64,000 nt of DNA, from assembly GCF_014695715.1 (NCBI RefSeq), contig NZ_JACJOT010000017.1, positions 62,001 through 126,000 on the forward strand. The letters are read 5' to 3'. Shown here piece by piece: positions 8,138-26,189 of the stretch. Position 1 is the first letter of the stretch; each line of letters begins with the position of its first letter. Made by a program: the position numbers and the translations under genes. This stretch comes from Microcoleus sp. FACHB-68 (GTDB lineage: Bacteria > Cyanobacteriota > Cyanobacteriia > Cyanobacteriales > Oscillatoriaceae). The notes under the pieces were generated by a model that was not told the origin of the DNA, did no database searches, and saw only the letters and a list, made by a program, of their open reading frames with translations.

Positions 8138-9622
8138 CTAAGCGTTCAACTTACGAGCTAGCAGTTGGTTGGTGAGCTTGGGATCGGCGCGTCCCCCGGT
8201 TTGTTTCATCACCTGTCCGACAAAAAAGCCCAGCAGCTTCGTTTTACCGGCACGATATTGTTCCAGTTCCTTGGGATTCGCCGCCAGCACTTCATCAATC
8301 ATGGTTTCCAAAGCGCCGGTGTCGGAAATTTGGCTCATTCCCTTGCTTTCTACCAATTCCTTGGCAGATCCACCGTTTGTTAGCAACTCTGGCAGCAGAT
8401 CCTTCGCCATCTTGCCGCTAATCGTGCCGGCTTCGATCAGGGAAATCAGTTCGCCTAAACTTGCCGGCTTGAGGGGAATTTCTGTAATGCTGAGCTTTTC
8501 CGTTTTCAGGTAAGCCGCAATATCCCCCATAATCCAGTTAGCCGCTTGCTTGGCATTCGCACCGGCATCCACCGCCTGCTCAAAATATTCTGCCACTTGC
8601 CGGTCCTCCGTCAGCACCCGCGCATCATAAGCAGAAAGCCCTAATTCAGTTTCGTAGTGGTGGCGTTTGTGCGCCGGCAACTGAGGCAACTCAGATTTCC
8701 ACTGCTCTAACTGTTTCGCCGACACTTCAATCGGAGATAAATCCGGTTCTGGGAAATAGCGATAATCGCTAGAACCTTCCTTCAAGCGCATACTGATCGT
8801 GCGCTGACTGCCTTCTTCCCAAAGCCGCGTTTCTTGATAAATTCGCTCACCGGCTTCCACGGCAGCAATTTGCCGCTCAATTTCATAATCAATCGCCCGC
8901 GCAATTGCACTGAAGGAGTTCATATTTTTAATCTCCACCTTCGTGCCAAACTTCTCTTGTCCAACCGGACGAACAGAGATATTGACATCACAGCGCAGCG
9001 AACCTTCTTGCATATTGCCATCGCTGACGCCAAGATAGCGCACAATCCGCTGCAATTCTTGAGCGTATTCAGCCGCCTCTTGCCCAGAACGAATATCCGG
9101 TTCTGAGACAATTTCAACTAAAGGAATACCGGCACGATTGTAATCTACCAGCGAGTAAGTCGAACCCGACAGACGATCACTGCCGGCGTGCACCAACTTG
9201 CCGGCATCCTCCTCCATGTGCAGGCGCGTAATGCCAATGCGCTTGCGTCTGCCATTGCCTTCCTCATCCACCAGCTCAATCTCCAACCAGCCATGCTCTG
9301 CAATCGGCAAGTCATACTGAGATATCTGATAGTTCTTCGGCAAATCTGGGTAAAAATACTGCTTGCGGTCAAATTTGCTGTACTTAGCAATTTCGCAGTT
9401 AAGCGCCAAGCCGGTTTTCACGGCATATTCCAGCACCTTCTGATTCAGTACAGGCAACACCCCTGGCATTCCCATGCAAATCGGATCAATATTCGTGTTG
9501 GGAGGTGCTCCAAATTCCGTCGAGGAACTGGAAAAAATCTTAGTTTTGGTACTAAGCTGACAATGGGTTTCCAGCCCGATAATCGCTTCGTACTGAGTTT
9601 TAACCGATGCAGCTGTGGTCAT
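8138..9622 (-). CDS. gatB: Asp/Glu-tRNA amidotransferase subunit B
   Basis: GatB is the kinase/transamidation subunit of GatCAB, which converts Glu-tRNA(Gln) to Gln-tRNA(Gln); cyanobacteria rely on this route. The N-terminus [13 protein letters not shown] is diagnostic, and the core carries [18 protein letters not shown] and [13 protein letters not shown]. The C-terminal YqeY-like tail ends in [20 protein letters not shown]. The open frame starts at a TTG 27 nt upstream, but the ATG at 9622 gives the usual length of 494 residues ([14 protein letters not shown]). gatA and gatC are not adjacent. A good terminator follows. Confidence 0.96.
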
Positions 9623-9884
9623 GGGCGTTACAGATTGCTTCTCTCGCAACGATTTGCTCCTATTGTAGCCCTGTCTCAGTCCCCTCAGCGCTTAAATCAC
9701 GATTGCCGGCACCGCCTTACCCACCCAAAAGGCGAGTCAATGTCAAGTTTCTAGTGCTCGTTAACAAAAGTAACCTGCTGATGCCGTATCCCTCTCTCCG
9801 CTTCCCAAACCGAGCTTTAACAACCAAACAGAAACGTGACACAATAGAATTGAGCGAGATTTTTTGCAATTAACAGAGGTAAAC

Positions 9885-10493
9885 ATGGCAGAAATCACAA
9901 AAGAGGAAATGCGTGAAAGGCTGGGAAATATCGATCAAATTCGCGATATCATCTTCGGCGCTCAACTGCGGGAATATAACAATCGCTTTGAAAAGATAGA
10001 GACTGAATTATCTCTGCTCCAGCAAGAAATGCACGATTATGCTGAGCAGGTAAAAAGTGTTCTTTCTACAGAAGTTCGAGCGGCTGTTGATTCTTTCGAG
10101 AAAAAACTCAAATCGGTTAATTTAAGCACCCAAGAAGAAAGCGCCGATCTTCGCCAGCAAATCGACCGGATTAATCGCAAGTTTTCAAATCACTTGGAAG
10201 CGCTTGATGAATCGGTTGACAAACAAACAAGTTCTATGCGTGACGATCTTTCACAAACCAGAGATAGGCTTCAAGACGAAGTTCGCAATCTGAGAAATCA
10301 GGTTTTCGATGAGCTAGACAAACGTCTATCTTTGCTGCGAGATGTCAAGGTTTCTAGAGACGACATGGCTGAAGTTTTGTTTGAGCTGGGGATGCGGCTA
10401 AAAGGAACAGAGTTTGTTCCTGAGCTTAAGGAAGCTGCCGATACGAATATGTATACGGATGTGCGGTTGATTGAACCCACCCATAACCAATAG
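9885..10493 (+). CDS. Coiled-coil cytoplasmic protein, first gene of the GTPase locus
   Basis: I do not recognise the family by name. The 202-residue protein is highly charged and almost wholly alpha-helical. A long heptad-rich region runs from about residue 25 to 165 (LREYNNRFEKIETELSLLQQ near residue 28), followed by a short C-terminal domain with MAEVLFELGMRLKG. There is no signal peptide or membrane helix. The ATG at 9885 is preceded by AGAGGT and is preferred over the upstream codon at 9864. It ends 63 bp before the OmpA-type gene on the same strand, with a GTPase and giant kinase beyond. A scaffold or adaptor role for that complex is an inference from position only. Confidence 0.8.
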   Translation: MAEITKEEMRERLGNIDQIRDIIFGAQLREYNNRFEKIETELSLLQQEMHDYAEQVKSVLSTEVRAAVDSFEKKLKSVNLSTQEESADLRQQIDRINRKFSNHLEALDESVDKQTSSMRDDLSQTRDRLQDEVRNLRNQVFDELDKRLSLLRDVKVSRDDMAEVLFELGMRLKGTEFVPELKEAADTNMYTDVRLIEPTHNQ

Positions 10494-10556
10494 AAAATCC
10501 AGATACTTATTCTAAGTCATTGCTAAAAGTAGCTTGATTTTATAGATTAGCAGATC

Positions 10557-13304
10557 ATGGCTTTATCGGAAGAAAATCCAGGAAGCAGGGAACAGCCAGA
10601 GGGGTTTGTTTCTGAATCTGTTCAGTTACAAGAGGATTCAGCAGCTCAGCTTGAAGTTTTGCTGGATCTTTTGATGGAACTGAACATCATTGATTCAGAT
10701 GAAAAACCCGTTGCTGAAACCCTTTCATCCCAAAATGATTCCAACGGTAAAGTTGCGGAAGCTGAGCGCTTGACAAATGTCACCTCTCAGCCTCCACTGC
10801 TAGATAATTCACCAGAAATATCAGGTTCGCATCAGTCAGATGTAGCAGATTTAAATGGCAGTATCGAAGAATTAAAAAGTTGGTTGCTGCTACCGGCATC
10901 AAAACAAGAAACGCCGGCACAGGCAGAGCAAGAGAATTTAGATAGCAACCCAGAAGACAAAAATCTTGCCGAATTCTCAGCGCCGGCACAGACAGAGATT
11001 GCCGATTTAAATCCCACAAGATTCTCAGCGCCGGCACCGGCAGATATCGCAGATTTAAGTACCACCATAGCCGACTTAAAAAAATGGCTGCTGCCGGCAC
11101 AGAGGCAAGAAGAACCAACAAAATCCGCAGCGCCGGCACAACCAGACGTTGGAGATTTAGATGCTAACCGAGAGGATGAAAATGCTGCCGAATCTTCAGC
11201 GCCGGTGTCACCGAATTTTGCCGCTTTAGACGCGACACTTGAGAAATGGCAAAATCGGATAAATCAGCGCCAGCAGCTTGAAAATAATGCTGAAGAATCC
11301 CTGTCAACGGGACAAGAATCAAAAGAGCCGGTTAATCCTGTTGAAAGTTTGCAAAATCTTCTATTTGGCTCTCAACTCACAGAAATAGAAGATTTTAAAA
11401 AGCTGCTGACTGAATCAGAATTGCCTGGAGTTCATAGCCAGCTTTCAAACATTCAATATAAGCTAGAAAATATCGAACATCAGCTTTACGATCCTGAACA
11501 GTTAATGAAGCTTTTGCTGCCTTGGATCGCTCACATTCTCAGCCTCAAAATTTCTGACTCTAAAGAAGAAGTCATTCAGGCAATCGTCCCAATTATTGAT
11601 GAAGTTATTAAAAATAGAACCCAACAAAATAAGCTTGCAATGAGTGCGGCAATTGCTGATTTGTTACCGGGAGCAATTTCTCAACAAATTAAGAACTCTC
11701 CCCAAGAAATGGCGAATGCGATTGCTCCAGAAATCGCCTTTGCAATTAAAGAGCAAATTCGGCTAGATCGAGACGCAATTGCCGAAGCGTTAGCACCGGA
11801 AATGGGGAGAGCGATTAAAGAACAAATTCGGCTTGAACGAGATGTCATGGTAGATGCGCTTTATCCCGTTATTGGTAATACCATTACGCGATATCTGGGA
11901 GAAGCGATTCGCTCTATCAATGAAAAAGCCTCAAGCGCCTTGAGTGTAGAAGGAGTTCAGCGCAAAATCCGCGCCAAAGTTCAGGGAGTCTCTGAGGCAG
12001 AATTAATCCTCCGGGAAGCCATGCCGTTTAGCGTGCCGGCCATTTTCTTGATTCACAAAACATCAGGACTAATTATTTCAGATGTTCAGCATTCTGGAAA
12101 TCAAAGATTAGAATCTGAAATGGTGGCGGGGATGTTAACGGCTATCCGCAGCTTTGTGAATGAATGTATTGTTCAGTCGGGAGAAATTTCGGAACTCAAT
12201 GAAATTGAATATGGGGATTCTAAAATTATTTTGGAAGTGGCAGGATACTGCTATTTAGCGGTAGTCGTTAAAGGAGATCCCTCCAAAAAGTTTATTGAAA
12301 GCATCCGAAAAACCTTGAGCGTTATCATTTTAGAATACGGTCAGCCTATCGAATTTTTTAATGGCGATCCGGCAACCATACCAGAGCCAGTACCGGCGTT
12401 ATTAGAAACATTAATGAACTCTGCAGCAGAGAAGCTGCCGGCGAAACAACCCCGCGCCCTTTTAGGAATTGGTTTACTTGCTTTAAGCCTAATTTTAGTG
12501 CCTTGGGGATTTTATTCCTACCGCAATAAAATTGAACGGGGCATTGAAGCCAAAGCCGGTTCTGCCTTAGCCTCCGCGCCCGAATTAGCTGTTTATCGTT
12601 TGAGCGTTGATGCTGAGGGAAAAACTTTGAAATTGACCGGAAACTTGCCTAATCAAGAACTCCGAGAAAAAGCTGCTAAAATTGCCAAAGCCGCAGTCCC
12701 AACCCTGAGTTTAGATAATCAAATTATTGCCGTTGATGTACCTCCTGATCCCGTATTAGTCGCAGCGGAAGTAAAACGGGCAACCGATGTTTTAAATCAG
12801 ATAAAGGGCGTGTCTATTTCAACAAAATATGCCGAACGTAAAGTCACCGTAGAGGGAACGGTTAGGGAAAAAACAGACACCCAGAAAATCGTCCAAGCCC
12901 TCAAACAAATTCCGGGGGTTCAATCTGTTATCAGCACGATACAGTTCAATCCGCTCCAGATTACCAGCCGAATCTACTTTGAGCCTGGATCTGCCGCACT
13001 CAGCCCTGCCTATCTCAAAACTATTATCCAGATTAAAAGTTTTTTACAGCAATACCCTGAGAAAAACCTTAGGATAATAGGTCATAGCGATGCCCTGGGC
13101 AATCAAACCACAAATCAGCAGTTAGCGCGACAACGGGCGATAGCTGTGCGAGACGCGCTTGTGAGTCAAGGTGTCGATCCCAAGCGACTACAAGCGATTG
13201 GGAAAGCAAAACCTCCTGCGGGTGTGGAGTCCAATCAACCGTTACTGTTAAGCAGATGTGTGGTATTTGAACCGGCAACACCGGCAAGAACCAACACTCA
13301 GTAA
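10557..13304 (+). CDS. Wall-anchored OmpA/BON membrane protein with possible roadblock/longin-like cytoplasmic domain
   Basis: This 915-residue protein has an unusual layout. Residues 1-270 are acidic, low complexity and rich in Ala, Pro, Glu and Gln (repeated SAPAQ-like blocks alternating with ADL segments). Residues about 330-470 are helical with two near-identical units built on RAIKEQIRLERD, then VDALYPVIGNTITRYL. Residues about 490-605 form an alternating strand/helix domain (IFLIHKTSGLIISDVQHSG to IILEYGQPIEFFNGD) that resembles roadblock/longin folds. A single membrane helix lies at about 633-654. Two BON-like repeats follow (about 675-730 and 740-798). An OmpA peptidoglycan-binding domain (about 803-910) contains IGHSDALGNQ and LARQRAIAVRDAL. 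With no signal peptide, the N-terminal part should stay in the cytoplasm and the OmpA end in the periplasm. It is followed after 52 bp by a Ras-like GTPase, a plausible partner. The domain calls for OmpA and BON are firm; the roadblock call is tentative. Confidence 0.85.
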   Translation: MALSEENPGSREQPEGFVSESVQLQEDSAAQLEVLLDLLMELNIIDSDEKPVAETLSSQNDSNGKVAEAERLTNVTSQPPLLDNSPEISGSHQSDVADLNGSIEELKSWLLLPASKQETPAQAEQENLDSNPEDKNLAEFSAPAQTEIADLNPTRFSAPAPADIADLSTTIADLKKWLLPAQRQEEPTKSAAPAQPDVGDLDANREDENAAESSAPVSPNFAALDATLEKWQNRINQRQQLENNAEESLSTGQESKEPVNPVESLQNLLFGSQLTEIEDFKKLLTESELPGVHSQLSNIQYKLENIEHQLYDPEQLMKLLLPWIAHILSLKISDSKEEVIQAIVPIIDEVIKNRTQQNKLAMSAAIADLLPGAISQQIKNSPQEMANAIAPEIAFAIKEQIRLDRDAIAEALAPEMGRAIKEQIRLERDVMVDALYPVIGNTITRYLGEAIRSINEKASSALSVEGVQRKIRAKVQGVSEAELILREAMPFSVPAIFLIHKTSGLIISDVQHSGNQRLESEMVAGMLTAIRSFVNECIVQSGEISELNEIEYGDSKIILEVAGYCYLAVVVKGDPSKKFIESIRKTLSVIILEYGQPIEFFNGDPATIPEPVPALLETLMNSAAEKLPAKQPRALLGIGLLALSLILVPWGFYSYRNKIERGIEAKAGSALASAPELAVYRLSVDAEGKTLKLTGNLPNQELREKAAKIAKAAVPTLSLDNQIIAVDVPPDPVLVAAEVKRATDVLNQIKGVSISTKYAERKVTVEGTVREKTDTQKIVQALKQIPGVQSVISTIQFNPLQITSRIYFEPGSAALSPAYLKTIIQIKSFLQQYPEKNLRIIGHSDALGNQTTNQQLARQRAIAVRDALVSQGVDPKRLQAIGKAKPPAGVESNQPLLLSRCVVFEPATPARTNTQ

Positions 13305-13356
13305 TTCTGGCAGGCTGAGCAATTATGTCAACCTATAATCCGTCAGTTAACTAAAT

Positions 13357-13890
13357 ATGTCAATGATATCAAAAAAAATGTGCCTGGTCGGCGATTTTGG
13401 CGTTGGAAAAACTAGCTTAATTCGCCGATTTGTTGATCGCCAGTTTAGCGATCAGTACCTTTCAACAGTTGGTGTTAAAATTTCTCGAAAAAATATTGAA
13501 CTGATTGGGGCGAAGGAGCAGGAAAAGCTAGATTTACAGCTGTTAATATGGGACTTAGAAGGGCATACTAAATTTAAGGCGATTGCCCCAAGTTACTTAC
13601 AAGGAGCCAGTGGTGCGGTGATCGTTGCAGATGTGAGCCGGCAAGAAACCATTGAGCGAATTCCAGAGCATCTTCAGCTCTTTACATCTGTTAACCCCAA
13701 AAGCTCTATCATTATCGCTTTAAATAAATCCGACCTCATTGATGAAGAAAAACTGGCAAAGCTTTTTGAGCTTGTCGAGGATCTCTCTCACGAGCAAATA
13801 CTAAGCATCCATACAACTTCGGCAAAAATCGGCAAAGACGTAGATGAAATCTTTCAGAAATTAGCTTACAAAATGGTAGAGCCGGTGTAA
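13357..13890 (+). CDS. Ras-like small GTPase (Rab/MglA-type)
   Basis: This is a 177-residue single-domain GTPase. All G motifs are visible: G1 GDFGVGKTS (12-20), G2 Thr37 in YLSTVGVKI, G3 WDLEGH (65-70), G4 NKSD (123-126) and G5 TSAK (154-157). The usual Gln of the WDTAGQ motif is His70, so hydrolysis may be slow or need a partner; in EF-Tu-type GTPases His at this place is functional. It has no lipidation-type cysteine at the end and no membrane helix. It lies between the OmpA-type protein and the giant hybrid kinase, 42 bp before the latter. Prokaryotic Ras-like GTPases such as MglA control polarity and motility together with roadblock proteins. A similar switch role here is inferred. Confidence 0.93.
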   Translation: MSMISKKMCLVGDFGVGKTSLIRRFVDRQFSDQYLSTVGVKISRKNIELIGAKEQEKLDLQLLIWDLEGHTKFKAIAPSYLQGASGAVIVADVSRQETIERIPEHLQLFTSVNPKSSIIIALNKSDLIDEEKLAKLFELVEDLSHEQILSIHTTSAKIGKDVDEIFQKLAYKMVEPV

Positions 13891-13932
13891 CTAAACTTTG
13901 ATTTTTAACTAGCGCTAAATCTCCAAGCCTTC

Positions 13933-16900
13933 ATGAAATACCAAGTTTTAAATCAGATTTTCCATAAACCCTCGTCCATCAACCAGATGGAATACATGGT
14001 AGTAGATGAACACTTCAACATCATAGAAATATCTGATGGAGCCAGACACTTTTCTGATCGTCCCTATGAAGCCATCCTCGGAAACGATGTTCGCGCCGGC
14101 TTTCCCGAACTCATTGGCATCGAAGATTATCTAATTGCCCTCCTTCAAGGGCAACAGGAGCTTTTTGAACTCAAAGGCATTGATCGCTCTGTTGAAGCGA
14201 GTTCTCCCTTATATATAGATGTTTACGTCATTAGAGATGAAGACGAAAAACTTTTAAAAAATCGATTGCTCGTCCTCATGGAAAACTCGACTGAAAGGAT
14301 GGTTTTAAAACAAACCTTAGTTCAGCGAGAAAACGAATCTTATCTTTTATTAAGCCAACTATCAGCCGCCAAATCTTATCTTGAAAAAATTTTATTAGCC
14401 ACGTCTGATGCTTTATTTGTTGTAAATAAAAACGCAATTATAAAAACAGTTAATAAAGCGACTTTAGATTTGTTTGGCTATCAAGAAAAAGACTTAATAG
14501 ATCAGCCGCTTGCGATGATTATGGCTGAAGGGCAAAGCGAGAATAAAATAACATCAGTCAGAGATTTTTTACAGCCGGCAACAGCCCTATCTAGAGGGGA
14601 ATTTTTGCAAAATGTCGAAGTCATTTGCCAAACCAAAACCGGAGAAGAAATTTTCATCGCCTTTTCTGGCTCAGCCATCCAAACCGGCTTAGATAACCTA
14701 GAAGATTTTGTCTATATCGGTCGAGATATCACCGAGCGCAAGCGCACCGAAGCCGCCATAGCCAAAATGAACGCAGCACTCGCCCAGCGAGTTAGCGAAC
14801 GAACCCTCGAATTAAGGCAAACCATCCAGCAACTAGAAACCCAAATTGCCGAGCGCCAGAAGATAGAAACAGCCTTGCGAGAGAGTAAATTGCGCTTCAG
14901 CAGCCTAATGAACTCGCTTCAAGATGTGGTGTGGTCAATTTCAGCAACAACCTTTGAACTGCTTTACCTAAACCCAGCTACAGAGACACTTTACAACCGG
15001 CCTGTTGGGGAATTTTATAACAATCGCCGACTCTGGCTTGAAGTGATTCACCCAGAAGACCGTGAGCGAGTTTCTAACTATGTTTCCACAATTGTAAAAA
15101 CCGGCAGCGCCGAAATAGAATACCGCATCATTCGTCGCGACTCAGAAGTGCGTTGGGTTTACGATCGAGGTCAGTTAATTAAAGATGCCAAAGGCAACGG
15201 CATCCGAATTGAAGGCATCATCACCGACATTACCGAACGCAAGCAAGCCGAAGCCATCCTGCAACAAACCAATGAAGAATTAGAACGCCGAGTCGATGAA
15301 CGCACCGCCGAATTAAAAGCAACCAACGAACAATTACTTAGCGAAGTTTGGGCACGGCAGCAAACAGAAGAAGCACTGCGCCAAGCTCACGATGAATTAG
15401 AAATTCGAGTGCAAGAACGCACCGCAGAACTCGCGACAACCAACGCAGCATTACAAGCAGAAATTAGCGAACGCCAGCGAGCCGAAGAAGTCCTACAAAA
15501 CATCGTTGCCGGCACAGCCTCCGTCACCGGAGAAGAATTTTTTCCCGCACTGGTGCGCCATCTGGCAGCCGCACTCGACGTTCGCTATGCCCTCGTCTCA
15601 GAAGCCAAAGGAGACCCGATTGAAAAATTGCAATCCCTCGCCTTTTGGGCCGGCGATCAACTGGGAAACAACTTCGAGTACAACCTAGCCGGCACTCCCT
15701 GTGAAGTCGTGATCAAACAGGAACAGCTCTGTCACTTTCCCGATTATTTGCAGGAACGTTTCCCACAAGCGCCGGCACTCGTTCCAATGGGTGCAGCCGG
15801 TTACTTGGGAGTTCCCCTATTAGACAGATCGCAAAAAGTGATTGGCAACCTGTGCATTATCCATGACCGGCCACTCAAGGAAGATCCGCAGGCCACATTG
15901 CTGATCACGGTTTTTGCCGCCCGCGCCGCAGCAGAACTCGAACGCCAGCAAGCCCAAGAAGCACTACGGAAATCCCACGATCAATTAGAAATTCGAGTCC
16001 AAGAACGTACCGCCGAGTTAATCGAAACCAATGAATTTCTTCAGTATGAAATTACTGAGCGCAAACAAGCAGAGGCGGAACTGCAAAGATACGCAGATGA
16101 ACTTCAGGATTTGTATAACTACGCCCCCTGCGGTTATCACTCTCTCGACCTAGATGGGATATTCATCCGAATCAACGATACCGAACTTAATTGGTTTGGC
16201 TATACGCGAGATGAACTGATCGGAAAAATGAAATTTGCTGATATCCTGACAGCAGAGAGTGTGCAAACTTTAAAGGAAAATCTTCCCTGCTACCACGCGC
16301 AAGGCTGGCTCAGCGATCTTGAGTTCGACATCATTCGTAAAGATGGCACAATACTGCCCATCCTCTTGAGTTCAACAGCAGTTAGAGATAGCGCCGGCAA
16401 CTATTTAATGTGCCGGTCCTCCGTTTTTGATATCACCGCTCGCAAGCAGGCAGAACAAGCACTGCGAGAAAGCGAAATTCGGCTCAGAAGCCAGCAAGCA
16501 GGACTGATGGCGCTCGCCAAGTGCCAACCCCTGTACACCGGCGATCTGGAAGCAGCCTTGCAAGAGATTACCCAAATCGCAGCTCAGACGCTTGAGTTAG
16601 AGCGGGTCAGTGTCTGGTTCTACAACGATGACCACTCCAAAATTAACTGCGCTGATCTGTATGAACTGACCCAAAATCAGCATTCCAGTGGCCTAGAACT
16701 CGCTGCCACAGACTTTCCCAATTATTTCCAAGCGATTAAAGCAGACCGCACAATTGCTGCGGATGACGCTCACACCGATCCCCGGACTCAGGAGTTTTCA
16801 GAGTGCTATCTCAAACCCTTGGGAATTGCATCCATGTTAGATGTACCCATTCGCATGGGTGGGCGAACAGTCGGAGTGCTTTGTCACGAACACATCGGAA

Positions 16901-19900
16901 CCGCCCGCCGTTGGGCGCTAGAAGAGCAAAACTTCGCGAATTACTTGGCCTACATGGCATCTCTGGCGATGGAAGCCGGTGAGCGCAAACGAGCAGAAGA
17001 GGAACGGCAAAAATTTGTTGCCCTTGTCGAAAATAGCAGCGACTTCATTGGCATGGCCACATTAGAAAGCGAAGTCTTTTATCTCAATGAAGCGGGGCGT
17101 CAGCTGGTAGGACTCGACAGTGACCAACAAACCTTGGTTCCTAAAATATCCGACTATGTTTCTCAAGACACTTGGGTGCAATATCAACAGACGTTGTTCC
17201 CCACCATTGAAAAAAATGGTCACTGGGAGGGAGAAGGCAAACTGCGCCACTTTAAAACCGGCCAGCTCATCGACACCCAAATGACCGTGTTTATTGTCAA
17301 GCACTTAGAAACCGGCGAACCCATGTGTTTTGCCACCGTTCAGCGCGATATTACTGACCGCAAGCTAGCAGAAGCTGCACTTTTAGAAAGCGAGAACAAA
17401 TATCGTTCTGTTGTTAACAGCTTACATGAAGTCATTTTCAAAAAAGACGCAAATGGCTTGTGGACATTTCTCAACCCAGCCTGGACAGAAATCACCGGCT
17501 TCACTGTTGAAGAAAGCCTAGGCAAAAACTTTCTAGAATTCATTTATCCCGATGACCGCCAAGTAAATTTAGGGCATTTTGAAAGCCTAATTAACCATAA
17601 AAAAGAAGTCATCCGGCACGAAATTCGTTACTTAACAAAAAAGGGTGGCTACCGCTGGATTGAGGTTCAAAAACGCTTGAATTTGGCATCAGACGGCACA
17701 GTGCTCGGCGTTTCAGGCACCCTCAACGACATTACCGACCGCAAGCTAATAGAACAAGCCCTAGAGCAAGAGCGTCAGCAGCTGCGGCAAATTATTACCA
17801 ATGCGCCGGTGGCAATGGCAATGTTTGATACCGAGATGCGCTATCTCGCTCACAGCAATCAGTGGGTGACAGATTACCAGCTACAGGAGCAAGCTTTGAT
17901 CGGGCGTTCCGCCTATGAAGTTTTGCCCTATCTATCATTGCCTCGAAAACATATCCACCAGCGGGCGCTGCAAGGGGAGGTCATTTCCAAACCAGAGGAA
18001 ATGTTTGAGCAGTTAGACGGCTCTAAAATGTATCTGCGCTGGGCTGTTCAACCTTGGTATAGCTCAGAGGGAAAAGTTGGGGGAGTTGTCATCGTCACTC
18101 AAGTGATTAATGAATTGGTCGAAGCGCGAGAAGCCGCCCTGGAAGCCTCGCGGATGAAATCGCAATTCCTGGCCAACATGAGTCACGAAATCCGCACACC
18201 GATGAATGGTGTGCTGGGGATGACCGATTTGCTTTTGTCAACGCCACTCAATGCGGAACAGCAAGACTTTGTGCGAACCCTGCGCGTCAGCGGCCAAAAT
18301 TTGCTGACCCTGATTAATGATATTCTCGACTTCTCCAAGCTCGAAGCCGGTGAAATGCGGCTGGAAACCCTGGACTTTGACTTGAATACCTGTGTGGAAG
18401 AAGTCACAGATTTACTAGCAGCACAGGCTAACGCCAAAGGATTGGAACTGTTTACTTTAGTGGAAAGTGATGTGCCGGCAGCCTTATCAGGAGATGCCAG
18501 CCGGCTGCGTCAGGTGTTGATCAATTTGGCCGGCAACGCGATTAAATTCACCTCACAAGGAGAAGTGGTGATTCATGTCCAGACGTGCGGCAAAGAACCG
18601 GGAAATGAAGAAACCTTGACTTCCTCTCCAGAAGCCGTAAAACTGCGATTTACCGTCAGGGACACCGGCATCGGTATCGCACCGGCAGACTTAGACAAAC
18701 TCTTCCAATCGTTTTCCCAAGTGGACGCCTCCACCACGCGCAAATATGGCGGCACCGGCTTAGGGTTGGTTATCTGCAAGCAGCTGGTAGAGCTGATGGG
18801 AGGTGAGATTGGCGTTGAAAGTGTAGAGGGGCGAGGTTCAACTTTCTGGTTCACCACCACCTTAGAAAAACAAGCCGTCGGCGGAATTTCACAGCCACGG
18901 CAGCATCCAGAAATTAAAATCCAAAATTGCCGGATGTTAATCGTGGATAATAACTCCACCAATCGCCAAATATTGCGCTCTTATGCCAACTCTTTTGGCA
19001 TTGAGGTGAGTGAAGCCGAAACCGGCATCACTGCTCTGACGAGCCTACGCCAAGCTGTAGCCAGTGGTCAACCCTATGATGTGGCTTTGATTAGCTTGGA
19101 TATCCTGGGGATCAATGGGGAAGTGTTCGGACAACTGATCCGCTTCGATCCTGCCCTCGTTCAAACCAAGTGGATTTCGATCGCTTCAATGCACCAGCGA
19201 GAGCAAGCCATTCGCCTGCTGGATCTGGGGTTCTCTTGCTATTTAATCAAGCCGGTGAAAGCGTCCAAGCTGTTAAATTGCTTGAGGCAAGTGATGAATA
19301 CTAAAGTCTATCCCTCAACAGATGGGGCGATTGCTGCCGGCAGGCACCAGCCGGCACGTGTTCCGCCATTGGCGCTTAAACAACCAACACAGGACAATCC
19401 ACAGCCGGCAATCACGTCCACCGGCGCTTCTGTCAAGCCGCCAGCACCCACCAATCATGCCCACGATCTAGAGCCACCAGAAACGCCAGCACAACCCCCG
19501 GCAACCCTGAAAATTCTGCTGGTGGAAGATACCCCGATTAACCAAAAGGTTGCCCTGAGTCAACTCAAGGTACTGGGTTATCAGGCTGATTGTGTCAGCG
19601 ATGGGCAGCAAGCCCTTGATCGGCTGGCCCAAACAGATTACGACATTGTGTTAATGGATTGTCAGATGCCGGTTCTTGATGGCTATAAAACGACACAAGC
19701 GCTTCGCCTCCGGGAAGGTGAATCTCGCCACACGATTGTGATTGCCCTGACAGCTAATGCCTTAAAAGGAGATCGAGAAAAGTGTTTGGCAGCCGGCATG
19801 GATGACTACATCAGCAAACCCATCGATCTCAAATCCTTGGCGGCTATTCTCAATCGCTATAAACCCATAAAAGAACAGCATGAGGAGGAAATAACGTCGG

Positions 19901-20277
19901 TTCTCTCTTCTGACAACCCTGTGTCTGCACCTCCTCTTGAAGTGCCGGTGGATCTAGAGCGACTGCACGAACTTAGCAGGGGAGATGCGTCATTTGAGTT
20001 GGAATTGCTAGAAACCTTTATGGAAGATGCTCCCACTTATGTGGAAGAAATTAAGCAAGCTGCTGAAACTCGTGATATCGCCACCCTTTGCCGGCGTGCT
20101 CACCAGCTCAAAGGTGCAAGCGGGATGGTTGCGATCCGCAAGATGCCGGCTCTAGCAGCTCAACTAGAGAGTCAGGCTCAAGAAAATCACCTGGAAGGAT
20201 TGGCGGAGTTAGTTGCTCAGTTAGAAGCGATTCTACAGCAGGTAAAAGCTTTGATCGCTAACTGGCCAGCTTGTTAA
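13933..20277 (+). CDS. Giant hybrid histidine kinase (sensor module-PAS-GAF-HisKA-HATPase-REC-REC-HPt)
   Basis: This 2114-residue cytoplasmic hybrid kinase has no clear membrane helix. An N-terminal module (1-150) carries NDVRAGFPELIG and SPLYIDVYV and recurs in two other sensors of this window. After it come several PAS domains (about 150-270, 310-435, 715-840, 1025-1145, 1150-1275, 1280-1400), two GAF domains (about 530-670 and 860-1010) and coiled coils with repeated EIRVQERTAEL segments. The kinase core has His1418 in MSHEIRTPMNG and the ATP-binding motifs LAGNAIKF (about 1532) and RDTGIGIA (about 1576). Two receivers follow: in the first the phospho-acceptor position is Ser1721, while the second has Asp1909 in LMDCQMPVLDG. 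A C-terminal HPt domain has His2057 in RRAHQLKGAS. The second receiver and HPt give a full internal phosphorelay. It directly follows the GTPase gene, which suggests a joint pathway. Confidence 0.95.
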   Translation: MKYQVLNQIFHKPSSINQMEYMVVDEHFNIIEISDGARHFSDRPYEAILGNDVRAGFPELIGIEDYLIALLQGQQELFELKGIDRSVEASSPLYIDVYVIRDEDEKLLKNRLLVLMENSTERMVLKQTLVQRENESYLLLSQLSAAKSYLEKILLATSDALFVVNKNAIIKTVNKATLDLFGYQEKDLIDQPLAMIMAEGQSENKITSVRDFLQPATALSRGEFLQNVEVICQTKTGEEIFIAFSGSAIQTGLDNLEDFVYIGRDITERKRTEAAIAKMNAALAQRVSERTLELRQTIQQLETQIAERQKIETALRESKLRFSSLMNSLQDVVWSISATTFELLYLNPATETLYNRPVGEFYNNRRLWLEVIHPEDRERVSNYVSTIVKTGSAEIEYRIIRRDSEVRWVYDRGQLIKDAKGNGIRIEGIITDITERKQAEAILQQTNEELERRVDERTAELKATNEQLLSEVWARQQTEEALRQAHDELEIRVQERTAELATTNAALQAEISERQRAEEVLQNIVAGTASVTGEEFFPALVRHLAAALDVRYALVSEAKGDPIEKLQSLAFWAGDQLGNNFEYNLAGTPCEVVIKQEQLCHFPDYLQERFPQAPALVPMGAAGYLGVPLLDRSQKVIGNLCIIHDRPLKEDPQATLLITVFAARAAAELERQQAQEALRKSHDQLEIRVQERTAELIETNEFLQYEITERKQAEAELQRYADELQDLYNYAPCGYHSLDLDGIFIRINDTELNWFGYTRDELIGKMKFADILTAESVQTLKENLPCYHAQGWLSDLEFDIIRKDGTILPILLSSTAVRDSAGNYLMCRSSVFDITARKQAEQALRESEIRLRSQQAGLMALAKCQPLYTGDLEAALQEITQIAAQTLELERVSVWFYNDDHSKINCADLYELTQNQHSSGLELAATDFPNYFQAIKADRTIAADDAHTDPRTQEFSECYLKPLGIASMLDVPIRMGGRTVGVLCHEHIGTARRWALEEQNFANYLAYMASLAMEAGERKRAEEERQKFVALVENSSDFIGMATLESEVFYLNEAGRQLVGLDSDQQTLVPKISDYVSQDTWVQYQQTLFPTIEKNGHWEGEGKLRHFKTGQLIDTQMTVFIVKHLETGEPMCFATVQRDITDRKLAEAALLESENKYRSVVNSLHEVIFKKDANGLWTFLNPAWTEITGFTVEESLGKNFLEFIYPDDRQVNLGHFESLINHKKEVIRHEIRYLTKKGGYRWIEVQKRLNLASDGTVLGVSGTLNDITDRKLIEQALEQERQQLRQIITNAPVAMAMFDTEMRYLAHSNQWVTDYQLQEQALIGRSAYEVLPYLSLPRKHIHQRALQGEVISKPEEMFEQLDGSKMYLRWAVQPWYSSEGKVGGVVIVTQVINELVEAREAALEASRMKSQFLANMSHEIRTPMNGVLGMTDLLLSTPLNAEQQDFVRTLRVSGQNLLTLINDILDFSKLEAGEMRLETLDFDLNTCVEEVTDLLAAQANAKGLELFTLVESDVPAALSGDASRLRQVLINLAGNAIKFTSQGEVVIHVQTCGKEPGNEETLTSSPEAVKLRFTVRDTGIGIAPADLDKLFQSFSQVDASTTRKYGGTGLGLVICKQLVELMGGEIGVESVEGRGSTFWFTTTLEKQAVGGISQPRQHPEIKIQNCRMLIVDNNSTNRQILRSYANSFGIEVSEAETGITALTSLRQAVASGQPYDVALISLDILGINGEVFGQLIRFDPALVQTKWISIASMHQREQAIRLLDLGFSCYLIKPVKASKLLNCLRQVMNTKVYPSTDGAIAAGRHQPARVPPLALKQPTQDNPQPAITSTGASVKPPAPTNHAHDLEPPETPAQPPATLKILLVEDTPINQKVALSQLKVLGYQADCVSDGQQALDRLAQTDYDIVLMDCQMPVLDGYKTTQALRLREGESRHTIVIALTANALKGDREKCLAAGMDDYISKPIDLKSLAAILNRYKPIKEQHEEEITSVLSSDNPVSAPPLEVPVDLERLHELSRGDASFELELLETFMEDAPTYVEEIKQAAETRDIATLCRRAHQLKGASGMVAIRKMPALAAQLESQAQENHLEGLAELVAQLEAILQQVKALIANWPAC

Positions 20278-20472: not shown

Positions 20473-21819
20473 ATGTCAAAAATTCTTGTCATCGAAGACG
20501 ATGCGGCAACTCGGTTATTTCTCAAGAGAGACCTTCACCTAGAGGGGTATGATGTCACGGTGGCGAAGGATGGTGCCGAAGGACTGCTACAAGCAAAGCA
20601 GTTACAACCGGCTCTAATTATTTGCGATTGGATCATGCCGTTGATGGATGGGGTGGAGGTGTGCCGGCAGATTAAGGCAGATCCCATTTTGGCTACTACT
20701 TTTTTTATCTTACTCACCTCCCGTGAGTCTGTGGCTCACCGAGTCGAGGGACTCGATGCTGGGGCGGATGAGTTTCTTTCTAAACCGATCGATCCGAATG
20801 AATTGTTGGCACGGGTAAGAGCCGGTTTGCGCCAGTATCAATTAACTCAAGAATTGAGTCGGGCAAACCAACAACTTAATCACGCGATGCAAGAGTTGCA
20901 ACACACCCAGATGCAACTGATTCAAAGTGAAAAAATGTCTGGTTTGGGGCAAATGGTGGCCGGCATTGCTCATGAAATTAATAACCCGGTTACATTTATT
21001 GATGGTAATCTCGCCCATGCCGGCCACTATCTCCAAGATTTACTAAAGTTAGTCCAGCTCTATCAAAAACACTACCCCAACCCGGTTACAGAGCTTCAGG
21101 AGGAAATTGAAGCGATTGATTTTCAATTTCTGGCAAAGGATGTGCCCAAAATTTTGTCTTCGATGAAAATGGGTGCGGAACGAATTCGCAAAATTGTGCT
21201 GTCACTGCGTAATTTCTCCCGCCTAGACGAAGCTGAAAAGAAGAAAGTTGACCTGCACGAGGGACTTGATAATACTTTATTAATTTTGCAGCATCGTTTG
21301 CAAACGAGTGATAGTTATTCGGGTATTCAAGTTACCAAACAGTATGGAGATTTGCCCTTGGTTGAGTGTTATGCCGGCCAGCTAAACCAGGTATTTTTAA
21401 ATATTATTAGCAATGCAATTGATGCGCTAGAAGAAGCGAAAACCCATCCGTTAGAAGCGATAGACGCGGCTGAGTGCCTCTTGCCGGTGATCCGAATTCA
21501 TACAGAAGTGAAGAATCATAGCTCGGTGGTGATCCGAATTGCGGATAATGGATTAGGGATGACAAAGGAAGTTCAGCGGAAATTGTTTGACCCTTTTTTC
21601 ACAACTAAACCAGTTGGGAAAGGCACTGGAATGGGTTTATCCATCAGCTATCAGATTGTGGTGGAAAAGCATGGCGGTACTTTAACTTGCATTTCTCAAC
21701 CCAGGGAGGGTGCAGAGTTTATTATTGAAATTCCGCTGCAGCAATCCAAATCATTACTGCCTTCCCATCGGGATAATACATCTGATGTAGCACGGCTGCG
21801 CCCTAGTCAAGGTATTTAA
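20473..21819 (+). CDS. Receiver-histidine kinase hybrid (REC-HisKA-HATPase)
   Basis: This 448-residue soluble signalling protein has an N-terminal receiver with phospho-acceptor Asp52 in IICDWIMPLMDG. A coiled coil follows (about 125-150), then a HisKA-like dimerisation domain with His167 in GIAHEINNP, and a HATPase domain with FLNIISNAIDAL and DNGLGMTKE. The HEINNP form is typical of cyanobacterial kinases fused behind a receiver. It is therefore switched by an upstream phosphodonor and passes the signal on. It begins 195 bp after the giant kinase, whose HPt domain is a natural donor (inference). Confidence 0.93.
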   Translation: MSKILVIEDDAATRLFLKRDLHLEGYDVTVAKDGAEGLLQAKQLQPALIICDWIMPLMDGVEVCRQIKADPILATTFFILLTSRESVAHRVEGLDAGADEFLSKPIDPNELLARVRAGLRQYQLTQELSRANQQLNHAMQELQHTQMQLIQSEKMSGLGQMVAGIAHEINNPVTFIDGNLAHAGHYLQDLLKLVQLYQKHYPNPVTELQEEIEAIDFQFLAKDVPKILSSMKMGAERIRKIVLSLRNFSRLDEAEKKKVDLHEGLDNTLLILQHRLQTSDSYSGIQVTKQYGDLPLVECYAGQLNQVFLNIISNAIDALEEAKTHPLEAIDAAECLLPVIRIHTEVKNHSSVVIRIADNGLGMTKEVQRKLFDPFFTTKPVGKGTGMGLSISYQIVVEKHGGTLTCISQPREGAEFIIEIPLQQSKSLLPSHRDNTSDVARLRPSQGI

Positions 21820-22072: not shown

Positions 22073-23809
22073 TTAACCAATGTCTGTTGATTGCAGATTG
22101 CGGGCTTGTTCTTCCAGCATTTTTTCTAAGGCTGTGGCCGGCACCGGCGGGCTAAATCCATAGCCTTGCATGAAATCACAGCGATAGTGGCGCAGTAATT
22201 CCTGTTGAGCTTTGGTCTCAACTCCCTCGGCAACCACTTTCAAATTCAAGCTATGCGCTAGTTTAATAATGCCGACGATAATGGCGGAATTTTTGTCTTC
22301 GTGACTGAGTTCGCGCACAAAGAAACGGTCAATTTTTAAAGTATCAAACGGAAATTGTTGTAAATAACTTAAAGAAGAGTAGCCGGTGCCAAAATCATCT
22401 AAGGACAAATGAATGCCTAAAGCTTTAAGTTCTTTTAATGTAGCAATCGCTTTTTTTGGGTTCTGCACCACCGCACTTTCTGTTAGTTCTAACTCTAAAA
22501 AGCGAGGATCTAGCCCTGACGCCTCTAAGATTTGAGCAACCCGATCACTTAAACCTGGTTGATTGAATTGAACGCCCGACAAGTTGGCTGCAACGGATAA
22601 GGAAAATCCCGCGTCTTGCCAGTCTTTTGCTTGCCGGCAAACCGTCTGTAGCACCCATTCATCAATGGGGACAATTAAGCCGGTTGCTTCGGCTAGGGGA
22701 ATAAATTCTGCCGGCGGGATTGAACCTCGTTTTGGGTGGTGCCACCGGATCAATGCTTCGGCAGCGACAATTTTTCCGCTTTGGAGGTCAACTTGGGGCT
22801 GATAATGCATTTGAAACTCAGATCGTTCTAAAGCATGGTGCACGTCGAGTTCTAGCATCAAGCGATCATAAGATTTCTCCTGCATTGCTGCTGTGTAAAG
22901 CTGATAGCAATTACCACTTTGTTCTTGCGCCTCATGCATGGCAGCTTTGGCATTTTTTAACAGACTATCGAGGTCTTCACCATCATTTGGATACAGTGCC
23001 ATGCCAATACTGCTGGTGATAAAAATTTTATATCCGAGCAACGTAAAGGGTTGAGATAATTCATCAATAATTGTTTGAACCATCTGTGTTGCTTTTTGTT
23101 GATCTTCCACTGGCGGCAAAATTAAAGCGAGTTGCTGGCTGTTTAATCGTGCCACTGTACCAATTTCGCTCACATAAGGAACAACCCGTTCGCTAATTTC
23201 TTGTAGTAATAAGTCTGTATAGTCGGTTCCCAAACTGTGGCTAAAACGGTCGAGCTGATCCAGACTGAGCACTGCAACCGCAATGATTTGATTGGGGTAA
23301 AGTTGAAGATTAAGAGTGTGATGAAATCGCTCACGTAATAAAAGTCGATTAGGAAGATTTGTCAGGCTATCGTAATAAACTAAGTCATTGAGCTGGGAGA
23401 TCGCTTGCTGAAGGGCGGTATTCTGCTGCTGCTTGAGCATTTCTTGCTTGCTCAACTGCGTTTTAATGGCACCGAGAAGTTCGCTTCTGGTGAAGGGCTT
23501 TGTCAGAAAATCATTGGCTCCTAGTTCCATTGTCCGGCGCTGTGCAGCGCGATCTCCTCTAGCCGTCAGGCAAATAACCGGAATCATGGCAGTGGCAGGA
23601 TTTTGTTGCAATGCAGCCAGCACGCCATAGCCGTCGAGTTCTGGCATCATAATGTCGCACAAAATTAAATCGGGGCATTCTGCGCCGGCCAACTGCACAC
23701 CGATACTGCCATTTTCAGCTCCTATGACCTGGAACTCTTCAGCCGTCAAGAGTGCCAGCAGATTCTTGCGTATGGAACGCTCATCTTCTATAACTAAAAT
23801 TTTTTTCAT
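22073..23809 (-). CDS. Response regulator REC-GGDEF(degenerate)-EAL
   Basis: This 578-residue protein has a receiver with an intact acceptor Asp52 in LILCDIMMPELDG, then a GGDEF-family domain whose signature reads RLNSQQLALIL instead of RxGGDEF. Cyclase activity is therefore unlikely. The C-terminal EAL domain is intact: EALIRW (about residue 350), AANLSGVQF, ELELTES, LDDFGTGYSSL, LKIDRFFV and VAEGVET. It is thus a likely c-di-GMP phosphodiesterase controlled by phosphorylation. The ATG at 23809 is preferred to the GTG just before it. It is the only minus-strand gene inside the signalling island and converges on the REC-kinase gene. Confidence 0.94.
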   Translation of the reverse strand: MKKILVIEDERSIRKNLLALLTAEEFQVIGAENGSIGVQLAGAECPDLILCDIMMPELDGYGVLAALQQNPATAMIPVICLTARGDRAAQRRTMELGANDFLTKPFTRSELLGAIKTQLSKQEMLKQQQNTALQQAISQLNDLVYYDSLTNLPNRLLLRERFHHTLNLQLYPNQIIAVAVLSLDQLDRFSHSLGTDYTDLLLQEISERVVPYVSEIGTVARLNSQQLALILPPVEDQQKATQMVQTIIDELSQPFTLLGYKIFITSSIGMALYPNDGEDLDSLLKNAKAAMHEAQEQSGNCYQLYTAAMQEKSYDRLMLELDVHHALERSEFQMHYQPQVDLQSGKIVAAEALIRWHHPKRGSIPPAEFIPLAEATGLIVPIDEWVLQTVCRQAKDWQDAGFSLSVAANLSGVQFNQPGLSDRVAQILEASGLDPRFLELELTESAVVQNPKKAIATLKELKALGIHLSLDDFGTGYSSLSYLQQFPFDTLKIDRFFVRELSHEDKNSAIIVGIIKLAHSLNLKVVAEGVETKAQQELLRHYRCDFMQGYGFSPPVPATALEKMLEEQARNLQSTDIG

Positions 23810-24662
23810 CACTATTTACAGCCGTGCCTAACAGTTTGCCACCCCAATCTCATGGCTTCATCGTAGCGAAATGCGCCGAAAGCTGTTGAATCGACGAGAT
23901 TTCTTAACGTTAATCTGCAAAATTTTAACGGGAAGGATTGAGAAGGGTCTATGATGTTTAATTATGTTAAGTTTAAACGGTTCTGTGAGCTACGCTACCA
24001 TCGATCTCGTTCTCACTCTGCTGCTCTTGCTACCTGACCTCTGGTAGTCTCACGATTGAGTGGCACCTTGCTTAAACTTCTATTTCCCAGGCACATTAAA
24101 TCTAAATAATTTAAAATTTGATATTACCATACATTAATACATTTTTCTCTTATGATTAAATAAATATCTGGAATTTAAGCCAATTATACAGGATGCAAAA
24201 GGCAAAATCATGTCTGCCATCTTACACAAATTATGCCGGCTTATACCTTTGGGCAAATCCAATCTGTTTAGTTGCTTGGGAAGCGGCAAGTTTGGTCATC
24301 AGTATTCACCAAAAGTCGGCATCTTATTCTTGTAAAGCTATTAATCAATTAAGTTATATATTTTGAATGAGCTGATTTTATCGTTTGCTATTGCGGTTAC
24401 TAGGCAGAAAGAAACTGGAAAGTCGTGACAGCAGCATCCTTAAAATTTGCGTTGTGGTTGCTTAATGCCGGCTACTGTCAGGGAGTTTTTAAGTGAAGAT
24501 CTGAGAACATGAATTGTTGTTACCTTTTTCACCAAACATCTTTTTTAGGGTAATTTTGAATTAGAGATATCTCTGAAACAATCACATTTCATAAAAAATC
24601 GTTTTTTAGCAAACCTTCCATTTTTGAGCAAACAACAATAATTTTTACAAATAAGCGCCGAT
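23810..24662. other. Long AT-rich spacer in the signalling island
   Basis: This spacer of about 850 bp separates the divergent REC-GGDEF-EAL gene and the second PAS kinase. The middle is very AT-rich. A 41-codon frame starts at 24210 (MSAILHKLC...), but it has no convincing ribosome site and is not called as a gene. Promoters for both flanking genes should lie here. No terminator or known RNA was recognised. Confidence 0.5.
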
Positions 24663-26189
24663 ATGAATACACTTTTAAAAAAATTATTAGGCCCGCGCCG
24701 TATGGAGTATCTAACAATGAATCAAGATTTGATTATTTTAGAAACTTCGGCCAGCGTGAAACGATTTGCTGATCGCCCCAATGAAGTGATTGTTGGCAAT
24801 GATGTCCGCGCCGGCTTTCCCGAACTGATCGGAGTTGAACATATTTTAGCAGAAGTCTTACAAGGCAAACAGGCCGGCTTAGAATTCAAGGGCATTGCTC
24901 GGTCTTCAGAGCGGGAATCTCCTTTATATATCGATCTTTTTGTGAGCGAGTTTCAAAATGATGAAACGCTAGAAAATCAATTAGTTGTGTTCTTTGAAGA
25001 TGTTACAGAAATGATGGTTCTGAAACAAACATTAGTTCAAAGAGCAAATGAAGCTAGTTTGTTACTCAGTGCGCTGGTGAGTTCAAAAGATTATATAGAT
25101 AAAATCCTTAAATCAATGGCCGATGCTTTATTAGTGACAACTTCTTCCGGCCAAATCAAAACGATCAATCAATCAACCCAACAGTTATTTCAATACAGCG
25201 AAGAAGAATTAATTGGCAAGCCAATTTCGTTGATTATACCTGAGAAAAAACTTCTCTCTCCAGTCATCGAACACTCAGAGTTACGCTCTCAATCTGAATT
25301 GTTGCAAAATGTAGAAGTCGATTGTTATACGAAAGCCGGCGAAAAAATTTCCGTTGCTTTTTCCTGTTCAGTCATTCAGACAGATATACAAGGCGTGCGA
25401 GATTTTGTTTATATCGGTCGGGATATCACCGAACGTAAGCGTGCTGAAGCGGAAACTCTTCACGCTCTAGAAAAAGAAAAAGAACTCAATGAAATAAAAT
25501 CTAATTTTGTCTCAATGGCATCCCATGAGTTTCGGACTCCCCTCACGATTATCCTAACTTCTGTAGAATTACTAGAAGATTACTATTACAGTCCTAAAAA
25601 ATGTGAAAAGAAGACTCAGCAATATTTTCAGATGATTCAAAAAGCCGTCAAACAAATGACAAATTTGTTAGATGATGTGCTGATTATTGGTAAATCGGAA
25701 GCCGGCAAACTAGAATTCGATCCCAACTTCATTGACTTAGGAAAATTTTGTGGCGATCTGGTGGAAGAGATGCAGCTCAGTACCGGCAACAAGCACTCCC
25801 TTACCTTCGTGAATGAGTGCGAAAGTATTAATGCTTGCATGGATGAAAAACTCCTGCGCCATATTCTCACTAACTTGCTTTCTAACGCACTCAAGTTTTC
25901 ACCGCCGGGAAAGCCAGTTGTTTTGCACGTCAGATGTCAAGATCAAGAGGTAATTTTTGAGATTCAAGATCAAGGAATCGGTATTCCTTTAGAAGATCAA
26001 AAACGATTGTTTGAATTATTTCATCGGGCCAAAAATGCTCGCAATATTTCCGGCACCGGCTTGGGATTGGCAATTGTCCACAAGTCTGTAGAATTACACG
26101 GGGGCAGAATTATGGTAGCGAGTGAAGTTGGAGCCGGCACGACGTTTAGAGTCATGATTCCCTGGAATAACTGTCATTTTTTAGACTAA
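24663..26189 (+). CDS. PAS sensor histidine kinase with DVRxGFPELIG module
   Basis: The 508-residue kinase opens with the same roughly 150-residue module as the giant kinase (VGNDVRAGFPELIGVE at about residue 44, then SPLYIDLFV and FFEDVTEMMVLKQTLVQRA). It continues with a PAS domain (about 150-265, ending YIGRDITERKRAE). The HisKA domain has His288 in MASHEFRTPLT, and the HATPase domain has LLSNALKFSPPG, DQGIGIP and GTGLGLAI. There is no receiver or membrane helix. It is followed after 47 bp by the nucleotide cyclase gene, which shares the module, so the two are probably co-transcribed paralogues with different outputs. Confidence 0.94.
   Translation: MNTLLKKLLGPRRMEYLTMNQDLIILETSASVKRFADRPNEVIVGNDVRAGFPELIGVEHILAEVLQGKQAGLEFKGIARSSERESPLYIDLFVSEFQNDETLENQLVVFFEDVTEMMVLKQTLVQRANEASLLLSALVSSKDYIDKILKSMADALLVTTSSGQIKTINQSTQQLFQYSEEELIGKPISLIIPEKKLLSPVIEHSELRSQSELLQNVEVDCYTKAGEKISVAFSCSVIQTDIQGVRDFVYIGRDITERKRAEAETLHALEKEKELNEIKSNFVSMASHEFRTPLTIILTSVELLEDYYYSPKKCEKKTQQYFQMIQKAVKQMTNLLDDVLIIGKSEAGKLEFDPNFIDLGKFCGDLVEEMQLSTGNKHSLTFVNECESINACMDEKLLRHILTNLLSNALKFSPPGKPVVLHVRCQDQEVIFEIQDQGIGIPLEDQKRLFELFHRAKNARNISGTGLGLAIVHKSVELHGGRIMVASEVGAGTTFRVMIPWNNCHFLD

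Follow-up and report, generated by a model that had tools for sequence, protein, structure and literature searches.

The stretch of DNA analyzed here (the window: 64,000 nt of the filamentous cyanobacterium Microcoleus sp. FACHB-68, contig NZ_JACJOT010000017.1, positions 62,001–126,000; all coordinates below follow window numbering) contains four plus-strand genes that encode, in order, a coiled-coil protein, a membrane protein with OmpA and BON domains (hereafter OMP), a Ras-like GTPase, and a hybrid histidine kinase. Our preferred reading, to which we assign a probability of about one half, is that this core forms part of a Rup Group 1-type G-protein switch that is tethered to the wall and feeds interchangeable outputs, namely phosphorelay, cyclic nucleotide, and cyclic di-GMP signaling. 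The constant fourth component of the gene set is not the giant kinase but the domain of approximately 135 residues at its N terminus, which also heads two other window proteins, a kinase and a class III cyclase, which start at 24663 and 26237, respectively. The evidence consists of the sequences, the gene order, co-occurrence across genomes, homology that spans two phyla, and predicted folds.

The neighborhood of Group 1 Rup GTPases was described in a comparative study by Wuichet and Sogaard-Andersen in 2014 (PMC4316618; statements taken from this and the other cited papers refer to the portion of text available to us). It comprises a coiled-coil protein; a second protein whose unknown domain is in many cases succeeded by a transmembrane segment and an OmpA domain; a GTPase without the G3 Gln; and an output protein, usually of the GGDEF/EAL or kinase type, whose N-terminal region carries an invariant Gln. 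The description includes cyanobacteria. The same text describes these GTPases as very similar to eukaryotic Rab, Ran, Ras, and Rho proteins, speculates that the catalytic Gln they lack is provided to them in trans, and states that no Rup member had been experimentally characterized as of 2014. The window locus fits this neighborhood, and its outline has therefore been known since then. Added here to the 2014 text are class III cyclase outputs, a stand-alone form of the N-terminal domain, several outputs per GTPase, co-occurrence at the level of the domain, and a roadblock assignment; the cyclase outputs may already be listed in supplementary table S2 of that paper.

A shared N-terminal domain heads the output enzymes

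In the hybrid kinase (2114 residues, 13933–20277, plus strand), the shared domain occupies 13933–14352 and is followed by Pfam matches to PAS, GAF, HisKA, HATPase, two REC stretches, and Hpt, in agreement with the REC and HPt domains named in the initial annotation of this DNA. By Kyte–Doolittle analysis no hydrophobic segment of transmembrane strength was seen in this protein, which is probably cytoplasmic. The same domain heads a histidine kinase of 508 residues (24663–26189, plus strand) and a class III adenylate/guanylate cyclase of 828 residues (26237–28723, plus strand); the initial annotation ended with the hybrid kinase and so omitted this remainder of the system.

Together with the window, 78 loci, all cyanobacterial by title and retrieved by a single contig scan with the GTPase as query, yielded 102 open reading frames (ORFs) with the shared domain. 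These were typed as histidine kinases (44), hybrid kinases with REC and Hpt domains (10), class III cyclases (36), and GGDEF proteins (4, the GGDEF references being members typed by Pfam), leaving eight untyped, of which four are cut by the locus end and four are complete at 256–412 residues. The initial annotation had the GTPase coupled to a giant phosphorelay kinase. This kinase does open with the shared domain beside the GTPase, but as the defining partner it was rejected, just 10 of the 102 ORFs being hybrid kinases of this kind, and the description was too narrow.

The domain contains two conserved glutamines, Gln127 (91 of 93 aligned rows) and Gln131 (90 of 93), which are candidates for the invariant N-terminal Gln of Rup outputs (PMC4316618). 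An AlphaFold2 model (predicted local distance difference test score, pLDDT, 85.6; predicted template modeling score 0.77) consists of two N-terminal helices, a core with the strand (E) and helix (H) order E-E-H-H-H-E-E-E, and a long C-terminal helix bearing both glutamines. This order is that of the PAS fold, and we call the domain PAS-like with respect to its predicted fold only. When compared with the adjacent PAS domain using hhalign, it scored 14.7, under the shuffle maximum of 18.0; in the 508-residue kinase, the Pfam PAS matches start at residue 146. A profile search of solved-structure sequences with the domain gave chance-level matches (best E = 0.36).

The domain also exists without an enzyme attached. 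In a second subfamily of eight loci (L158–L161 and L163–L166; L and G numbers denote our loci and genomes), six have it as a stand-alone protein of 127–135 residues right after the GTPase, the exceptions being a cyclase fusion in L160 and L161, in which the domain was not found.

A Rab-like GTPase without the G3 glutamine

The GTPase gene (13357–13890, plus strand, 177 residues) was assigned by Pfam (Ras, 3e-28; Roc, 1e-27), a search of solved-structure sequences, and alignment. Within the best 60 of 242 matches, its closest solved relatives are eukaryotic Rabs (E = 1e-22). In an alignment of 104 rows, which contains near-duplicates and the query twice, the G3 Asp (Asp66) is present in every row, and position 70, which we take to be the equivalent of Ras Gln61, is His in 88 (as in His70 of the window), Glu in 11, Ser in three, Asn in one, Arg in one, and Gln in none. 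Judged by its sequence, the protein is thus a Rup Group 1 GTPase, that is, Rab/Ras-like with the G3 Asp and without the G3 Gln.

The label “MglA-type” given in the initial annotation does not hold, since MglA lacks the conserved G3 Asp (PMC4316618), with Thr in its place in M. xanthus MglA (PMC3000849). An MglA system was rejected for this reason and because no gene with Pfam Robl_LC7 (E = 1e-6) was found in 15 relatives, the genome of the window among them; in the latter genome, none was found at E = 1e-4 either.

Among named relatives, the GTPase is closest (90% identity) to one from a Microcoleus vaginatus metagenome-assembled genome. In a tree of 95 sequences, from which sequences under 150 residues and loci L114–L125 (repeats of others) were left out and which included no MglA sequences, the rhizobial GTPases described below cluster with those of the second subfamily (11 rows, 100/100), apart from other cyanobacterial GTPases. 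The GTPase of genome G133 forms a very long branch (length 8.0); in L162 (3619–5556), this divergent gene lies directly before a shared-domain gene, and the OMP core was not found in that genome. Another locus (L082:5862–12912) has two GTPase genes, each overlapped by 4 bp by the shared-domain gene that follows.

Gene order and co-occurrence in cyanobacteria

The spacers between the four core genes of the window are 63, 52, and 42 bp, in gene order, and ORFs and Pfam agree with the initial annotation on four same-strand genes with the stated domains. Upstream neighbors were counted in the 67 loci that extend 4 kb or more upstream of the GTPase and downstream neighbors in the 68 that extend 3 kb or more downstream. 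The OMP gene adjoins the GTPase in 61 of 67 loci, with a median gap of 8 bp (range, −55 to 291), and a homolog of the coiled-coil protein lies upstream in 64 of 67. A protein with the shared domain starts at most 2.5 kb downstream of the GTPase in 59 of 68 loci, with a 4-bp overlap in 22 of the 59. The gene order is therefore kept when followed with the GTPase query, as the initial annotation had proposed to check, and its picture of an operon-like unit that joins a wall-binding-type membrane protein, a Ras-like GTPase, and a signaling output stands.

After the GTPase of a Moorena locus (L104:7999–10038) comes a Ser/Thr protein kinase of 679 residues (Pfam Pkinase), in which the shared domain was not found; it could be a replacement of the output. 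In G382 (L219:9720–11759) an untyped ORF of the same length occupies the same place.

Presence and absence were then assessed over 386 genomes of the phylum, including that of the window, with thresholds of E ≤ 1e-15 for the GTPase and E ≤ 1e-10 for the OMP core and the shared domain. Each of the three was found in 45 genomes. The GTPase is joined by OMP in 44 and by the domain in 41, with all three present in 40; for GTPase versus domain, the Fisher p value, with phylogeny ignored, is 6e-46. A GTPase lies at most 20 kb from 47 of the 77 domain matches. Typing of 29 of the 30 others (one carries stops and was left out) gave 12 cyclases, eight kinases, seven GGDEF proteins, and two in which none of these was found. 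Part of these distant matches sit in fragmented assemblies and are therefore not proven to be unlinked.

Homologous gene sets on rhizobial plasmids

In a plasmid collection of 72,556 records, the OMP core and the GTPase match the same four, of which one is from Nostoc, one from Mesorhizobium, and two from Rhizobium. The order in Mesorhizobium sp. WSM1497 is a hypothetical protein, which corresponds to the coiled-coil protein, an OmpA family protein, a Rab family GTPase, and an adenylate/guanylate cyclase, and matching ORFs in the same order, again with a cyclase as the fourth gene, are present in Rhizobium sp. 007. Compared with the window proteins, the Mesorhizobium GTPase shows 38% identity (E = 2e-34) and the OMP 28% over 232 residues (E = 5e-28). 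The N terminus of the rhizobial cyclases aligns nearly end to end with the window-type domain in hhalign (P = 1e-5, score 36.6; best of 60 shuffles, 22.6), narrower profiles gave E values of 0.016 and 3e-4, and the rhizobial-type domain has two invariant Gln residues in nine of nine rows. By these alignments, the gene set is homologous across two phyla, in cyanobacteria and rhizobia.

A roadblock-like domain in the membrane protein

OMP (10557–13304, plus strand, 915 residues) consists of a long N-terminal region, a putative roadblock/LC7-like domain, one transmembrane helix, BON stretches, and a C-terminal OmpA domain. Its only strongly hydrophobic segment (residues ∼634–652, 12456–12512; Kyte–Doolittle mean, 2.19) is followed by two stretches that match Pfam BON (3e-12), the better of which covers residues 662–714 (12540–12698), and by the OmpA domain (12975–13214; Pfam, 3e-17). 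In the latter, Asp845 and Arg860, presumably the peptidoglycan-binding residues, are present in 66 of 68 and 68 of 68 aligned sequences, respectively.

The most conserved part of OMP, residues ∼430–600, has no Pfam match at E ≤ 1, Robl_LC7 included, and a profile search of solved-structure sequences with the OMP core stayed at chance level (best E = 0.19). When residues 480–599 (11994–12353) were compared using hhalign with a diverse Robl_LC7 profile, after exclusion of OMP rows under 150 residues and roadblock rows under 80, a match over 87 columns was obtained (P = 2e-4, score 30.7, probability 46%), above the maxima for 100 column shuffles (23.9), reversed profiles (16.3), and other families of this analysis (15.6). 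AlphaFold2, run with 35 rows, predicts the order H-E-E-H-E-E-E-H for this region, with pLDDT values mostly of 69–87 per ten-residue block and of 46–58 in a loop. A helix, two strands, a helix, three strands, and a helix make up the roadblock/LC7 fold. Profile and predicted fold order thus suggest that the “unknown domain” of OMP is a candidate roadblock/LC7 relative, which supports the initial annotation in its choice of OMP residues 480–620 as a possible GTPase partner. Coupling of Rup GTPases to MglB was counted in 0 of 121 cases, or 0 of 71 small ones, in table 1 of PMC4316618, and the roadblock-like domain is therefore, within the reach of our literature searches, a new candidate partner.

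The coiled-coil protein and neighboring genes

The coiled-coil protein (9885–10493, plus strand, 202 residues from an ATG start; the longest ORF opens at 9864) has the N-terminal motif IRDIIFGxQxREYxxRFxxLE. With its Mesorhizobium counterpart it shares 23% identity (E = 6e-10, a single comparison), and because coiled coils resemble one another, this is the weakest case of homology to the rhizobial set. By eye, LQNLLFGSQL in OMP residues ∼264–291 (11346–11430) resembles IRDIIFGAQL of the coiled-coil protein, possibly as a common binding element.

The interval that separates the giant kinase from the second kinase and the cyclase holds an accessory REC-histidine kinase of 448 residues (20473–21819, plus strand), identified by Pfam and by homologs near the GTPase in some relatives, and a REC-GGDEF-EAL gene on the minus strand (22073–23812). 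Homologs of the REC-kinase sit shortly after the GTPase in L101, L102, L103, L107, L109, and L110. The 508-residue kinase is likely the counterpart of a kinase of ∼516 residues whose gene in Microcoleus comes after that of the GTPase or overlaps it. Upstream of the coiled-coil gene, a divergent gene labeled GatB (8138–9649) has a homolog in 18 or more of the loci, and its recurrence suggests vertical inheritance of the place.

A scan for promoters and terminators was uninformative because its counts were near expectation (34 promoter-like sites versus 29.9 expected; 23 terminator-like sites versus 21.9). It showed no plus-strand promoter- or terminator-like site within the three core spacers, a weak plus-strand promoter-like site upstream of the coiled-coil gene (9817–9845), and three minus-strand promoter-like sites at the OMP–GTPase spacer.

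Discussion

In the switch that we consider here, the periplasmic OmpA domain would hold OMP to peptidoglycan, OMP would span the inner membrane once, and the roadblock-like domain on the cytoplasmic side would dock the Rab-like GTPase, and the coiled-coil protein would serve as a scaffold or regulator. The shared PAS-like domain of each output enzyme would read the nucleotide state of the GTPase, the outputs in the window being the hybrid kinase, the second kinase, and the class III cyclase. With no catalytic Gln of its own, the GTPase may rely on a conserved Gln in the C-terminal helix of the shared domain to complete GTP hydrolysis in trans, as was proposed in 2014 for a Gln in this region of the output proteins (PMC4316618), and each output would therefore be both effector and GTPase-activating protein. 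We infer every physical contact, the direction of signaling, the product, and the stimulus, which may be the state of the envelope or wall, sensed by the complex.

Several observations weigh against this reading. Nine of the 68 loci (L042, L070, L078, L103, L104, L105, L106, L107, and L109) lack the shared domain within 2.5 kb downstream of the GTPase; three of these are from Moorena, and in L042 the domain lies 6.5 kb from the GTPase. The GTPase query skews the 78 loci toward near relatives, so that the counts are not independent events, and the Fisher p value takes no account of phylogeny. GTPase without the shared domain occurs in G059, G330, and G362, which have the rhizobial-type domain beside the GTPase, and in G382, with Moorena-like genes and no shared domain nearby; the domain without the GTPase occurs in G027, G219, G322, and G390. 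As mentioned, 30 of the 77 domain matches have no GTPase within 20 kb, and G107 carries its OMP core and its GTPase on different contigs. The match between rhizobial and window-type domains becomes weak without the C-terminal helix (P = 0.004, 45 columns). The roadblock match reached significance only once divergent members had been added on both sides, narrow profiles giving E values of 0.065 and 0.25; the hhalign probability of the better match is just 46%, and the whole OMP model has a mean pLDDT of 66.1. In a survey of 373 genomes, a Pfam Robl_LC7 gene was found elsewhere in eight of the 45 GTPase genomes, in none at a listed place near the GTPase, so that another roadblock partner is possible there. 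Five genomes contain an OMP-core paralog, in an ORF of 1204–1220 residues, distant from GTPase matches (G008:C204, G039:C1:5128262, G219:C10:58928, G226:C13, and G358:C122); in G219 the paralog is the sole OMP core, and that genome has no GTPase match and one shared-domain protein. Finally, later experimental work on, or a function for, any Group 1 Rup GTPase was not found in the openly licensed literature.

The alternative that survives best, although we consider it improbable, reverses the direction of signaling: the kinases and the cyclase would be upstream regulators, and the GTPase would be the output, acting on a remote target, for instance motility or the assembly of the envelope. The 2014 authors themselves liken Rup Group 1 to the actinobacterial conservon, for which they posit the GTPase as output (PMC4316618), and the slightly tighter pairing of the GTPase with OMP (44 genomes) than with the domain (41), together with the variation among output enzymes, would fit such an arrangement. 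However, the part of the fourth gene that is kept across phyla is its N-terminal domain, whose conserved Gln complements the Gln missing from the GTPase, as expected for an effector or GTPase-activating contact, and the enzymes concerned produce diffusible or phosphorelay signals.

Somewhat less probable still is that the roadblock-like domain of OMP is the sole partner of the GTPase and that the N-terminal domain of the outputs is an ordinary PAS domain that senses small molecules and happens to be encoded in the same operon. Its PAS-like predicted fold, the further PAS and GAF domains in the output proteins, and the 30 distant matches are compatible with this view; against it, the presence and absence of the domain track the GTPase over the 386 genomes, the domain stands alone directly after the GTPase, with no enzyme in cis, in six of eight second-subfamily loci, and it does not score as homologous to the neighboring PAS domain. 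That the coupling to the giant kinase is a local accident, in which a signaling island without a function in the pathway came, by insertion, to separate the GTPase from its usual kinase and cyclase, is very unlikely: although in many Microcoleus loci the ∼516-residue kinase directly follows or overlaps the GTPase and its likely window counterpart starts 10.8 kb off, past the giant kinase, the REC-kinase, and the opposite-strand GGDEF-EAL gene, the giant kinase itself opens with the shared domain, which is 93% identical in the nearest relative, and large hybrid kinases with this domain (10 of the 102 ORFs) recur in Oscillatoria, Laspinema, and others.

Yeast Ras acts on adenylyl cyclase, and Ragulator contains roadblock-type proteins. 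What we propose for the wall-tethered switch resembles the former, in that a Ras-like GTPase acts on a cyclase, and Ragulator–Rag, in that a scaffold holds a GTPase at the membrane (PMC5680233); both likenesses are meant as analogy only, without evidence of common descent of the pathways. Among bacterial systems, the Myxococcus polarity switch MglA/MglB likewise pairs a small GTPase with a partner of roadblock fold, MglB being a roadblock/LC7 protein (PMC4316618), whereas here the G3 Asp is kept and the roadblock-like domain, which has diverged too far to be matched by Pfam Robl_LC7, forms part of a membrane protein. The actinobacterial conservon (Cvn) also has a GTPase, a roadblock protein, and a kinase in one operon, but its GTPase belongs to MglA Group 2, the four Cvn proteins named in the text include no OmpA protein, and the Cvn kinase has a C-terminal LPxR motif (PMC4316618). 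With respect to Rup Group 1 itself, the available text names outputs of the GGDEF/EAL or kinase kind but not a roadblock partner, whereas class III cyclases are frequent here and OMP has a roadblock-like domain; in addition, one GTPase is followed by three outputs, and the domain can stand alone.

The initial annotation called this signaling system little-described, which is fair given one comparative paper and no experiment found. Our searches for Rup literature gave, apart from PMC4316618, one archaeal Rab paper; none was found on a link to hormogonia, and for the combination of cyclase, OmpA, and small GTPase, nothing relevant appeared by title and abstract.

A bolder version of the proposal, which we hold tentatively and at less than even odds, is a bacterial Ras-to-cyclic-nucleotide pathway, in which a Rab-like GTPase held at the wall via the roadblock-OmpA protein would directly control class III cyclases (and, as a result of domain swapping, also kinases and GGDEF proteins) through one GTPase-reading domain that also supplies the missing catalytic Gln. 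Relative to the 2014 outline, as far as its text is available to us, the gene set gains a second-messenger (cyclase) branch. If the proposal is true, cyanobacteria and rhizobia share a plug-in switch with the same gene order. A roadblock-like partner and one domain transferable to kinases, cyclases, and GGDEF proteins would turn a vague neighborhood into a specific, testable switch, which would bear on the origin of Ras-type control of second messengers.

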